Shown one piece after another: positions 42,905 through 46,446 of a DNA stretch of 64,000 bases. Each line of letters begins with the position of its first letter. Within the stretch, counting starts at the first letter, position 1. Source of the DNA: Iphinoe sp. HA4291-MV1 (GTDB lineage Bacteria; Cyanobacteriota; Cyanobacteriia; Cyanobacteriales; Nostocaceae); contig JAHHHH010000011.1 of assembly GCA_019359415.1 (NCBI GenBank), positions 1-64,000 on the forward strand, written 5' to 3'. The notes below the pieces were generated by a model. That model made no database searches and was not told the DNA's origin. It was given only the letters and a program-made list of their open reading frames with translations. A program made the position numbers and the translations under genes.

Positions 42905-43038
42905 AGTTATATATTAGTCACTAGTCATGCCTTGCTAATCTCGTAAGCTCCACTCAGGATACTGTTATCATATTACAACTCGTTGTCGTAACCGTGAGTT
43001 AAAGTTGAGTTGCAAAGAATACCGGGAGGTGTTTCTCT

Positions 43039-43149
43039 ATGGCTAGAGTGGGAACATCAACCCAAGAAATTCAGGTAGTAGCTGAAAAGTTTATGCTAGC
43101 AAACCGCTATAACCCACATATTGCTGCACAGTTGGAAGATGAAAGATGA
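43039..43149 (+). CDS. Tiny gene (36 residues) with strong ribosome-binding site and own terminator
   Basis: Encodes MARVGTSTQEIQVVAEKFML followed by ANRYNPHIAAQLEDER. GGGAGG lies eight to thirteen bases upstream of the ATG. A perfect ten-base-stem hairpin with a T run follows at 43170-43206. The coding end and the following 20 bases recur near 44390-44703, where a MITE interrupts the copy. The gene could be a truncated remnant of a longer one, yet signals look complete. Function unknown. Confidence 0.5.
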   Translation: MARVGTSTQEIQVVAEKFMLANRYNPHIAAQLEDER

Positions 43150-43169
43150 TTCTAAAAACCTCAAAAGAT

Positions 43170-43206
43170 GCAAGCAATCCGCAACAACTGCAGATTGCTT
43201 GCTTTT
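43170..43206 (+). terminator. Terminator after the 36-residue gene
   Basis: GCAAGCAATC (43170-43179) and GATTGCTTGC (43193-43202) form a stem followed by TTTTG. Confidence 0.75.
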
Positions 43207-43239
43207 GATTCAGTGCTAGTAGCTATTAAAATCGGTTTT

Positions 43240-43415
43240 AGCTCGACTTTATCCATTTGCCGCCACAAAAGCAAACAATAAAACCCCTGTGTTTAGCGGC
43301 TTAGGACTTTTTAAATATCGCTGATATCTCCAACCTGGGAAAAAGTGTTGTTTACAATGGCGGAAAACAGTCGAGCATTTGTAGCAGGCAAAACTGATTT
43401 GGATAAAGTCGAGCT
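43240..43415. repeat. Inverted repeat pair AGCTCGACTTTATCCA
   Basis: Sixteen-base arms at 43240-43255 and 43400-43415 are perfect inverses and enclose 144 bases. A 33-codon frame (43357-43458) overlaps the right arm but has no strong signals. It may be a small non-autonomous element or a structured RNA. Confidence 0.6.
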
Positions 43416-43458
43416 TAACTTTCTTTTGTCACTTTGGGAAGATAATAATCAGAGCTAA

Positions 43459-44029
43459 ATACCGAAAGCCAGATTTAATCAAGGATTTAGCGATTGCATA
43501 TTGATAGAAACCCTGAAACGAAGGCGAATAGGCAAAACCCTAACAAGGAAAGGGTTTTAGATTTTAATCTGGCGAGAGTGATAAAAGAGAGTTAAAGTCA
43601 ACAAATTTTCAGAAAAAACTGCAATTCTTTCAGGCTAATATTTTCAAGCCTGCCAATACCATCTAGCCTATTAGAGGATATTTGAAAAGTATAGTTTTTG
43701 TCATGCTAAACGTAGCCCAGCACAAGTGTTGCATTTAGGTCTCAACAAAAAATTAGGATTCTAAGTCCCTGAGTCCTTACGGACACGCTGCGTGTTGGCA
43801 AAGCTGCGCTTTGCGCTTACGCTCCATTTCATTCCCCGTCACAGCTTCGGCTCAGAATGAAATTATACTTATCTTCAACTTTCCAAATATCCTCTTAGAA
43901 ACCCCAATACTTATTGTCACTTCTGAAGTGGTTTCTATACCAAACTTCACTGATATAGACTACACTCCATCATGTACCTTTCTCGGAATATTTGTCCAGA
44001 TATTGGTAGTTTTTGGTTTACAGTTTCTA
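43459..44029. other. Spacer with possible RNA structure and repeat sequence
   Basis: Nested inverted segments are seen at 43466-43577: CCAGATTTAATC near the start against AATCTGG near the end, with an inner AAAACCCT/AGGGTTTT hairpin at 43534-43558. Around 43768-43830 there is a G+C-rich repeat. No protein gene is supported. Confidence 0.45.
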
Positions 44030-44245
44030 TCAAAAAAGCAAATCAAACACAAGACCAAGTAAACTGAAATCCTTATCACTTTCTCCAGGTTGAGTTGCCG
44101 CGCCTCCCCTGGCTCCCCCTCTTACGTGACTTAATTGCTCACTGGAGAGTTCTACTAGTTCATTGATCGAGTCAAATGCAGGCATCGCATTCAATTTATC
44201 GACAGTAATTCTTGCTTTTACGGTAGCGTTTTTGGTATCAGACAT
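44030..44245 (-). CDS. Putative double-glycine-leader peptide precursor A
   Basis: 71 residues. Leader of 44 residues (MSDTKNATVKARITVDKLNA ... ELVELSSEQLSHVRGG) fits the double-glycine consensus: Leu-12, Ser-11, Leu-7, Val-4, Gly-2, Gly-1. The following 27-residue core ARGGAATQPGESDKDFSLLG plus LVFDLLF ends hydrophobic. Such leaders are removed by C39-peptidase ABC exporters. A paralogue lies at 44713-44940. No modification or export gene is in the window. The precursor role is inferred from the leader form. Confidence 0.75.
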   Translation of the reverse strand: MSDTKNATVKARITVDKLNAMPAFDSINELVELSSEQLSHVRGGARGGAATQPGESDKDFSLLGLVFDLLF

Positions 44246-44302
44246 AAATGTTTTACGGAGAGTGTTTACAACTGTATCATATCATACCTTTAAGAGAAAC
44301 TG
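44246..44302 (-). promoter_or_regulatory. Conserved upstream region of precursor A
   Basis: This region and 44941-44997 upstream of precursor B are alike: CTTAAAGGTA, GATATGATACAG and AACACT are shared in the same spacing, ending at the start codon. TATGAT is a fair -10 element. The similarity stops at TTTCTCTTAAAG, marking the edge of the duplicated unit. Confidence 0.6.
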
Positions 44303-44308
44303 GTCAAC

Positions 44309-44398
44309 CCACTGATTTTGCTTCACAGCGGCTAAGTTACAATCAAAGAAGATACTGCCAACAACGTTCGTCACGAGTATCCGTTCTCACAACAGCAA
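44309..44398 (-). pseudogene. Degenerate fragment resembling the adjacent ABC permease gene
   Basis: The plus strand reads CAACCCACTGATTTTGCTTC, then TTACAATCAAAGAAGATACT and CCGTTCTCACAACAG. The same order occurs within the permease gene at about 45901-46016 (CAGCCCACTGATTTTGCTTC, TTACAATCAGAGAAGATACT, CCGTTCCCACAACAG). The fragment lacks about 28 bases between its first and second blocks and keeps no reading frame. Confidence 0.7.
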
Positions 44399-44436
44399 AG
44401 TTTGTGCTAGCAAACCGCTATAATCCGCATATTGCT

Positions 44437-44668
44437 CTGACTTTTCACAGGAAGTCCGAGAAACAGAAACAGCATAAGTTTTTCCACAGGCTGATCCTCA
44501 ATAGTTTTAGATGAATAAAAATGAATCACGAGAAAATCAGCGTTTGAAAAACTCAATTTCTGCGATACGCCAAGGCACGTCTCTTGCTTCCTTGCGATCG
44601 CCAAAGGCGGGGCTTCGCCCATCGCGCTCCCTATCAAAGTGACTTTTCCAGATGCCGTGAAAAGTCAG
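44437..44668. mobile_element. 232-bp MITE with 12-bp terminal inverted repeats and 10-bp target duplication
   Basis: Ends CTGACTTTTCAC and GTGAAAAGTCAG are perfect inverses. GCATATTGCT occurs directly outside both ends (44427-44436 and 44669-44678). The related, uninterrupted sequence at about 43115-43130 acts as an empty site. No transposase frame inside, so it would need a transposase in trans; a 10-bp duplication suits IS4-like enzymes. A 32-bp G+C-rich palindromic repeat lies inside (44594-44625). Confidence 0.85.
44594..44625. repeat. 32-bp G+C-rich palindromic repeat (inside the MITE)
   Basis: Differs at about one base from the reverse complement of 54654-54685 inside lptA. Bounded by GCGATCGCC and CCCATCGC. 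Confidence 0.85.
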
Positions 44669-44712
44669 GCATATTGCTGCACGGTTGAAAGATAATTCTA
44701 AAAACCTATCTA

Positions 44713-44940
44713 TTAGCCTATAAACAACTTAACCAGCCAACCTGTTATACCACCTAGCTCATGACTTTCACCATCTTCCCCAGGTTTACCTACATCACCT
44801 CCCTTGGCTCCCCCTCTTATGTGGCTCAATTGTTCCTCTGATAGTTCTACTAGTTCATTGATTGAGTCAAATGTAGGCATTGCATTCAATTCATCAACAG
44901 TCATTCTTGCTTTTACGGCAGCGTTTTTGATGTTAGACAT
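44713..44940 (-). CDS. Putative double-glycine-leader peptide precursor B
   Basis: 75 residues. The 44-residue leader (MSNIKNAAVKARMTVDELNA ... ELVELSEEQLSHIRGG) is about 82% identical to that of precursor A by direct comparison (36 of 44). The 31-residue core AKGGDVGKPGEDGESHELGG plus ITGWLVKLFIG differs strongly except for PGE and the hydrophobic end. Conserved leader with variable core is the mark of RiPP or bacteriocin precursor families. Processing and transport genes are not nearby. The upstream region is duplicated with it. Confidence 0.75.
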   Translation of the reverse strand: MSNIKNAAVKARMTVDELNAMPTFDSINELVELSEEQLSHIRGGAKGGDVGKPGEDGESHELGGITGWLVKLFIG

Positions 44941-44997
44941 AAATGCTCTATGGGTAGTGTTTCTGACTGTATCATATCGTACCTTTAAGAGAAATAT
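44941..44997 (-). promoter_or_regulatory. Conserved upstream region of precursor B
   Basis: Aligned with 44246-44302; shares CTTAAAGGTA, GATATGATACAG and AACACT. Regulatory function is inferred from retention. Confidence 0.55.
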
Positions 44998-45309
44998 CTA
45001 CCTCTCAGCGAAATCAGATAATAATTTAGTGATATTAGTATGATTTATAACTAGCAACAATATTTGGGATGTGTTTGGTTGTTGCTGCACCAGTGGGTGG
45101 TGGGAGTGTGGATTTGATAAGCTGAAAATCCGATAATTTGCACACTACATTTAAATAAAACTCTTGTAGGGTGGGCATCTGATCCCCCCGAATTGTGCAA
45201 ATTAAAGGCACAACAGCTTACCATTAATCATTATTTTGGTACTAATGACAACAGACAAATAACAAAGGACGATGAAGACGAGTGTACCGTCCCTTGTATC
45301 TAAAATGAG
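44998..45309. other. Spacer between precursor B and the permease gene
   Basis: No gene seen. GGGTGGGCATC and similar short repeat-like pieces only. Confidence 0.4.
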
Positions 45310-46359
45310 TTAATTGAGATTCTCTAAGCGAATGCGAGGATCGGTCGCCTTAAGTAACAAATCCGCTATCAAATTACCAACACTGAGTAGCACAGCGCTC
45401 ATAACCAAACTTGCCATCACCAAATATAAATCTTGAGCCTGCACCGCTTGTAAAGTCAATCTTCCTAAACCAGGCCAGTTGAAGAAATATTCTGCAATAA
45501 ACGCACCACTCAATAAACTTGCTAACTCAAAACCTAACAAAGTAATCAAGGGGTTGATTGCATTGCGCAGAGCATGAACATAGATAACCCGGTTCTCCGG
45601 TAATCCTTTGGCACGAGCCGTTTGGATATAATCTTGACGTAGCACATCTAATAATTCACCTCGAGTAATACGCTGTAAACCAGCAAAGCTTGTGATACTG
45701 AGAGCAATGGTGGGTAGAATCATGTGCCAGCCAATATCGAGGATTTTACCAAACCAGTTGAGTTCGGTGTGGTTGATACGGGTCATGTCACCTACTGGAA
45801 AGATGGGCGAGACATTTTGGGCAAAAATCAGTAGCAATAGAGCAGTGATGAAACTGGGAAACCCTTGTCCAGCATAGCTAATCACCTGCAAAACACGGTC
45901 AGCCCACTGATTTTGCTTCACAGCCGCGACTATACCCAAGGGAATGGCGATCGCCCACGTTACAATCAGAGAAGATACTGCCAAAAGCAAAGTCGCTGGT
46001 ACCCGTTCCCACAACAGTGACGCCACCGACCGCTGGTAAACAAAGCTTGTGCCAAAATCCCCCTGTGTTATAATTCGCCACAGCCAAAGTCCAAATTGCT
46101 CTGGTAAAGACTTATCCAAACCAAACTGTCGTCTCAGTTCGTCAATTCTTTCTGGAGAAATCTTTGGGTTTTGCCGTAGCGTATCCACATAATCCCCGGG
46201 AGCAAGTTGAATAATGAGAAACGACAACGCTGATGCTAAAAACAAAGTTAACAGCGCCTGCAATAGCCGCTTCATGACATAAATAAAACTCTCGCTCGTG
46301 ACTAACTTCAAAAGCCAATCACGACTTGCATCTAAGGAAATTCGTGTAGTAGTAGTCAT
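45310..46359 (-). CDS. ABC transporter permease, DppB/OppB type
   Basis: 349-residue inner-membrane permease of a peptide/nickel/oligopeptide-type importer. The N-terminal LLQALLTLFLASALSFLIIQLAPGDY and the LRRQFGLDKSLPEQFGLWL loop are typical of DppB; the ABC-coupling EAA motif is about IQTARAKGLPENRVIYVHALRNA. Six hydrophobic segments are seen. The other subunits (DppC, DppD/F, binding protein) are not in the window, as is usual for split cyanobacterial clusters. The ATG at 46359 lies in an STRR unit; a later Met (46275, MKRLLQALLTL) may be the true start. Confidence 0.9.
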   Translation of the reverse strand: MTTTTRISLDASRDWLLKLVTSESFIYVMKRLLQALLTLFLASALSFLIIQLAPGDYVDTLRQNPKISPERIDELRRQFGLDKSLPEQFGLWLWRIITQGDFGTSFVYQRSVASLLWERVPATLLLAVSSLIVTWAIAIPLGIVAAVKQNQWADRVLQVISYAGQGFPSFITALLLLIFAQNVSPIFPVGDMTRINHTELNWFGKILDIGWHMILPTIALSITSFAGLQRITRGELLDVLRQDYIQTARAKGLPENRVIYVHALRNAINPLITLLGFELASLLSGAFIAEYFFNWPGLGRLTLQAVQAQDLYLVMASLVMSAVLLSVGNLIADLLLKATDPRIRLENLN

Positions 46360-46422
46360 TAGTCATTAGTCATTAGTCATTAGTCATTAGTCATTAGTCA
46401 TTAGTCATTAGTCATTAGTCAT
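46353..46422. repeat. STRR array, ten copies of TAGTCAT
   Basis: Ten perfect seven-base copies; on the minus strand ATGACTA, so each supplies an ATG. The first copy contains the apparent permease start codon. A second ten-copy array of the same unit is at 56021-56090. Confidence 0.95.
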
Positions 46423-46446
46423 TTGCTTTGGACAAAGGACCATTGA

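Follow-up and report, generated by a model that had tools for sequence, protein, structure and literature searches.

Two small open reading frames of the cyanobacterium Iphinoe sp. HA4291-MV1, here called precursors A and B, share a double-glycine leader and end in unrelated sequences. Do such genes, placed far from any exporter, still produce peptides that leave the cell, or are they remnants of ones that once did? Both lie in a window of 64,000 nt, the whole stretch of DNA that was analysed; gene content and repeat DNA suggest that the source is filamentous. We give a probability of roughly 60% to the reading that A and B are duplicated precursors of short exported peptides, cut by a C39 exporter encoded elsewhere, which would release them as unmodified extracellular peptides.

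Two putative precursors with a common double-glycine leader

The two genes and the repeated DNA that contains them are the following:

44030–44245, minus strand: precursor A, 71 aa with an ATG start; leader (residues 1–44) ending LSSEQLSHVRGG, core of 27 aa
44713–44940, minus strand: precursor B, 75 aa with an ATG start; leader (residues 1–44) ending LSEEQLSHIRGG, core of 31 aa
44081–44299, minus strand: duplicated block, copy A, composed of 54 nt upstream and the first 55 codons
44776–44994, minus strand: duplicated block, copy B, 219 nt, 83% identical to copy A
44246–44299 (A) and 44941–44994 (B), minus strand: shared upstream region, identical at 45 of 54 positions, with a TATGAT element

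The leaders are identical at 36 of 44 residues. By direct reading, LSSEQLSHVRGG and LSEEQLSHIRGG match the double-glycine pattern at positions -12, -11, -7, -4, -2 and -1; they also agree with the leader criterion for C39 substrates, namely a GG, GA or GS end and hydrophobic residues at -12, -7 and -4. A second GG comes just after the first in both precursors (GGARGG in A, GGAKGG in B). The core of A consists of ARGGAATQPGE and the tail SDKDFSLLGLVFDLLF, that of B of AKGGDVGKPGE and the tail DGESHELGGITGWLVKLFIG: PGE is kept in both, and both C-termini are hydrophobic. Each core has a net charge of -2 and contains no Cys; the calculated average masses of the cores are 2825.1 (A) and 3124.5 (B). 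The original prediction, which had described a pair of paralogous genes with a common leader of the double-glycine type and PGE-retaining, hydrophobically ending cores of 27 and 31 residues, agrees with the DNA on all these points, the paralogy being visible as the repeated block. An AlphaFold2 model with the two sequences was uninformative, with a mean pLDDT of 50.2.

Moderate evidence of constraint on the leader frame

Two of the 292 ORFs of 40–130 aa in the window carry the GG motif. Sixty first-order simulated windows held 0.18 such ORFs on average, and two of the 60 held two. On its own the motif stands out only mildly, and the duplication is the stronger evidence.

Between the copies, the first 55 codons agree at 137 of 165 nt and the leader at 113 of 132 nt; in the leader the differences fall 11 times on third, six times on first and twice on second codon positions. 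The leader frame contains no stops and has a pS of 0.318 and a pN of 0.095 (pN/pS 0.30), with a one-sided Fisher p of 0.007 that was calculated from rounded counts and is uncorrected for the six frames tried. A pN/pS of 0.36 (p = 0.014) is found in one antisense frame, which a stop interrupts. The counts for the leader frame amount to about nine synonymous and ten non-synonymous changes. With numbers this small the evidence is moderate; if the duplication happened on the spot, it suggests that the leader frame has been under constraint since then.

A promoter scan of the area performed no better than shuffles (four found, 4.0 expected), and a terminator scan found none, with 1.2 expected.

Homology stops at codon 55

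The homology between A and B stops sharply at codon 55, at PGE, and the DNA beyond is unrelated. Up to this point the first 11 core residues show a pN of 0.27 and a pS of 0.28, about the synonymous rate of the leader. Past it the tails extend for 48 and 60 nt, stop excluded, and align no better than shuffles, 87% (DNA) and 37% (protein) of which score equally high. Without gaps they agree at 17 of 48 positions, whereas neutral divergence at the synonymous distance of the leader would leave 68% identical (binomial p 3e-6, for a distance based on about nine changes); the best of 25 ungapped offsets reaches 52%.

With an identity so far below the neutral expectation, the cores did not merely drift. 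An abrupt break followed by tails without detectable relation leaves three possibilities: replacement of the tails, their extension from other DNA, or change at far more than the neutral rate. The predicted contrast of a conserved leader with a diverging core therefore holds for the leader and needs rewording for the core, in which homology ends abruptly with no gradual fading.

Two pieces of 65 and 68 nt spanning the tails were searched against 41 genomes, that of the source included, and no origin was traced. Outside the window they gave four matches of 23–31 nt; three of them lie inside a long unrelated frame, and we take all four as chance.

An insert rich in mobile-element debris surrounds both genes

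A and B are part of a 2.3-kb insert with the following neighbourhood:

42929–45221: the insert, between the purF-side flank and an ABC permease gene; absent here in seven of seven congeners
42942–43131, plus strand: internally deleted remnant of a Y1 (IS200-like, PF01797) transposase, N-terminal part at 42942–43040 and C-terminal part at 43066–43131
43416–43598: dispersed repeat with more copies in the same genome and in relatives
43882–44028, minus strand: remnant of an element whose transposase, in relatives, has Resolvase and MerR domains; 1 nt lies between it and the stop codon of A
44302–44396, minus strand: permease-gene fragment, matching the neighbouring ABC permease gene (compare 45897–46020)
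44397–44436, resuming at 44669–44707, plus strand: repeat of the C-terminal part of the Y1 transposase; 5 nt lie between it and the stop codon of B
44437–44668: MITE-like element of 232 bp with 12-bp terminal inverted repeats CTGACTTTTCAC/GTGAAAAGTCAG
45118–45221: dispersed repeat of about 104 bp at the right end of the insert, with an identical copy at C66:19174–19277
45310–46359, minus strand: ABC permease gene (BPD_transp_1), adjoining the insert and found in eight of eight genomes of the genus

In all seven congeners the flanks are adjacent or at most about 100 nt apart, which makes the insert unique to the source genome among the eight genus genomes compared. It is largely composed of transposase, MITE-like and permease fragments. 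The family of the Y1 remnant was read from the intact frame of a relative, L070 (PF01797), and we take the transposase to be a RAYT. The remnant next to A, presumably IS607-like, comprises a transposase N-terminus (43882–43938; a weak match of 19 aa, E 0.007) and upstream DNA (43904–44028). In one relative, L067, the IS607-like element appears to interrupt a PIN-domain gene, the fragment of which scores 23.6 bits, exactly the PF01850 cut-off; from this case we infer that the element's own end probably lies beside the stop codon of A. The MITE-like element is flanked by the 10-bp repeat GCATATTGCT and has related copies in congeners. One other element of the same design was found in the genome, with a pattern whose spacing is too short for the window's own element. 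We do not count the ABC permease gene in the peptide system.

The interval between purF and the permease gene takes up DNA repeatedly: L051 has about 100 nt of its own here and L054 about 60 nt, and L053 carries about 2 kb of extra DNA some 300 nt from the insertion place. Tandem TAGTCAT heptamers occupy 46353–46429, upstream of the permease gene, with similar repeats at the insertion site in several congeners. The right-end repeat has many related copies in genomes of the family.

Debris of this kind around A and B makes decay possible, and decay is the main rival to the exported-peptide reading. An ancestral GG-peptide gene would have been duplicated and then cut at codon 55 by insertions and deletions of elements, and the tails would be accidental read-through with no function. 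We consider such a history rather unlikely, despite several features that suit it: mobile debris 1 nt and 5 nt from the two tails, tails without detectable mutual homology, absence of the insert from all seven congeners, and a permease fragment in the same insert that is plainly a remnant. What speaks for maintained genes is that both ORFs are intact, that the leader frame is constrained between the copies (on small counts) and that the tails end hydrophobic. The last 12 residues of A and B are more hydrophobic than 93% of the random open 12-codon stretches of the insert, 6.5% of which equal the end of B and 1.2% the end of A, the measure and the length of 12 residues both having been picked post hoc; this argues mildly against accidental tails.

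A further reading starts from the same break. The leader could act as a cassette to which recombination with mobile DNA supplies new cores. The upstream region, the leader and the first 11 core residues, through PGE, would be kept as one block, and the part after codon 55 would be replaced whenever an element inserts or deletes at the 3' end; we regard this as decidedly unlikely. The break agrees with it, as do tails that abut IS607-like and Y1-transposase debris, which are expected under such an exchange; this consistency concerns two sequences. If true, unrelated exported tails would arise in one or two steps, not by point mutation.

An orphan pair among its relatives

Further copies of the leader, for which the original prediction had proposed a search, were not found: the genome contains only those of A and B at E up to 10, and no clear homologue turned up in related genomes. 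In 60 genomes searched at E up to 1, weak matches occurred in 15 (the source genome among them), with 18 places in the other genomes, eight of which were inspected with the motif pattern. At E up to 0.05, six of 218 family genomes matched, the source included and the five others at E 0.005–0.034; reading their ORFs rejected all five, four being small GG-motif ORFs with different leaders and L037 not being one. A sample of the order, which overlaps the 218-genome set, matched in three of 388 genomes at E up to 0.01, again with the source included, and added one further genome; its match L085 was viewed as DNA only.

Among the weak matches, L015, L021/L036 (one place), L029, L035 and L038 are small GG-motif ORFs whose leaders are unlike those of A and B. 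L013, L018, L019, L024, L031 and L037 have no convincing GG-leader ORF by pattern or by reading.

Plasmids and phages, searched by tblastn with precursor B only at E up to 1, contained no clear relative. Patterns from the two-sequence alignment matched 65 stretches of genome contigs, none of which was confirmed, and a degenerate motif matched nothing there; the pattern scan of viral contigs gave 197 stretches and again no confirmed one. Because these contig scans depend on short patterns being matched almost exactly, they may miss distant relatives. PHROGs holds no family matching A or B at E up to 1, and the best hit among PDB sequences, a riboflavin protein at E 0.72, was taken as chance. 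Altogether, no clear homologue of A or B appeared in the 217 other family genomes, the overlapping order sample, the genome and viral contigs, the plasmids or the phages.

C39 exporters elsewhere in the genome

No exporter adjoins A and B. Exporters of the C39 type, expected elsewhere, do exist: the genome has 12 PF03412 (C39) matches over the cut-off, one of them a fragment, and a full NHLP-type cassette stands on the same contig.

L010:6160–11572 (C4:90160–95572), 45,220 nt from B on the same contig: NHLP-type HlyD and C39-ABC cassette

The exporter scores 1160 bits with TIGR03796 and 359 bits with TIGR03794, and is the only match of its genome over the TIGR03796 cut-off among the matches listed. 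At least one NHLP-type exporter exceeds the family cut-off in each of the eight genus genomes, counted by exporter type. The cassette is followed by two GG-motif ORFs (L010 10678–10875 and 11372–11572), for which NCBIfam gives no match up to E 0.01 and whose leaders, by reading, differ from those of A and B outside the GG motif. Ten C39 regions (L075–L083 and L010) were scanned, and small ORFs with a motif ending in GG occur at L010 only; L077, L079 and L081 have loose motif matches without GG.

Near a long-type C39 exporter, a glycine-rich ORF of 104 aa with a leader-like start lies at L075:14091–14405 (C99). NCBIfam contains nothing that matches it up to E 0.01, and it may be a GG-motif variant missed by the pattern.

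Judging from the sequences, export and cleavage of A and B in trans by a resident C39 exporter is plausible: such use would fit a genome that already has an exporter for GG-type substrates, and precursors found in a single species.

Peptides leaving through a C39 transporter could also resemble EbfG and serve signalling or biofilm formation rather than act as toxins, an assignment that we find unlikely. Secreted GG-motif proteins serve biofilm formation in a cyanobacterium, according to one report (PMC4997328), and HetC, the C39-type exporter that heterocyst formation requires, is described in another as having no known substrate and none found encoded nearby (PMC10986499). The anionic cores of A and B, with no immunity gene recognised nearby, point the same way; a conserved developmental exporter is, however, unlikely to have as its partner a gene found in one species only.

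Family profiles and peptide class

No NCBIfam or Pfam family reaches its cut-off for A or B, and most of the best sub-threshold matches belong to bacteriocin or RiPP families with GG leaders. The CTB family bacteriocin profile (NF038167) matches around the GG region of A and B with 17.0 and 15.1 bits, below its cut-off of 32 bits and over 20 of its 72 positions. The leader of mersacidin/lichenicidin type 2 lantibiotics (TIGR03898) matches weakly over most of both leaders, with 13.9 bits for A and 16.8 for B against a cut-off of 23.5; cores without Cys make a lanthionine ring impossible. Bacteriocin class IIc (PF10439) gives 14.5 bits for both precursors against a cut-off of 27.1, and the bacteriocin signal (TIGR01847) 12.7 bits for B against 15.7, A not being listed. 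No NHLP or Nif11 leader model is among the NCBIfam and Pfam matches at E up to 1. By reading, neither an immunity gene nor a modifying enzyme was recognised among the ORFs near A and B, and the cores are free of Cys; the suggestion of a RiPP, in the modified sense, finds no support here, and the class II bacteriocin-like nature suggested with it stays a candidate. Most characterised bacteriocins are not anionic, unlike the cores of A and B.

As neighbouring precursors with a common leader, A and B could together make a two-peptide (class IIb) bacteriocin, and B does contain two GxxxG motifs. The motif, which the class has in both peptides, is missing from A, and we judge such a pairing very unlikely. 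The genes stand 467 nt apart, each with its own upstream block and with debris in between; reading of the nearby ORFs brought no recognisable immunity or accessory gene to light; and B scores 15.2 bits with the lactococcin G-beta/enterocin 1071B model, the cut-off of which is 37.

That A and B are chance ORFs in duplicated non-coding DNA is barely credible: the rate of GG-motif ORFs in simulated windows and the low pN/pS of an antisense frame would allow it, against a sense frame open in both copies, differences concentrated at third positions and a GG motif retained despite 17% DNA divergence.

Proposed function

We return to A and B as precursors of exported peptides. For this reading count the intact ORFs with a GG leader, the pN/pS of 0.30, the kept upstream block and the presence of C39 exporters. 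Against it count the lack of an adjacent exporter, of a clear homologue and of any family above its cut-off, the anionic cores, leaders next to the NHLP-type cassette that are unlike those of A and B, a promoter scan equal to shuffles and an uninformative structure. An orphan GG-leader pair able to use a resident exporter is the most economical account.

The peptidase domain of a C39-type ABC exporter from another part of the genome would recognise the common leader and cut behind GG; the likeliest candidate is the HlyD/C39-ABC cassette of NHLP type that shares the contig with A and B. The products would be two unmodified peptides, 27 and 31 residues long, each with an acidic start containing Gly and Pro and a hydrophobic, perhaps helical, C-terminus. 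They may act outside the cell, as an antagonist or as a cell-to-cell signal. Expression, export, cleavage, choice of exporter, helix and activity are what we infer for A and B from the features above.

To our knowledge, few cyanobacterial double-glycine peptides have a known role. In this pair the DNA itself shows how far a duplication extends. Should the pair be functional, a "variable core" can mean a sharp break in homology instead of gradual drift, and precursors can sit in mobile debris far from their exporter, where exporter-anchored searches would miss them.

Comparison with known systems

Cyanobacterial double-glycine precursors have been divided into NHLP, N11P and "other" groups, with an enormous diversity and slight conservation of cores, as stated in the survey by Wang et al. 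2011 (PMC3140520). Like the precursors described there, A and B are short, carry a GG motif and belong to a genome with C39-type exporters. They differ in standing away from the exporter, in a leader that stays under the NCBIfam and Pfam cut-offs, and in having no PHROGs match.

In Synechococcus elongatus, efficient secretion of the GG-motif proteins EbfG1-4 needs a C39 transporter, again according to that report (PMC4997328). With EbfG1-4 and PteB the pair shares, by description, the nature of small cyanobacterial GG-motif proteins; the ebfG genes, going by the locus numbers in the same source, form a row that adjoins the transporter gene, unlike A and B. The kind of peptide is already known, and the A/B pair itself is a new, orphan member.
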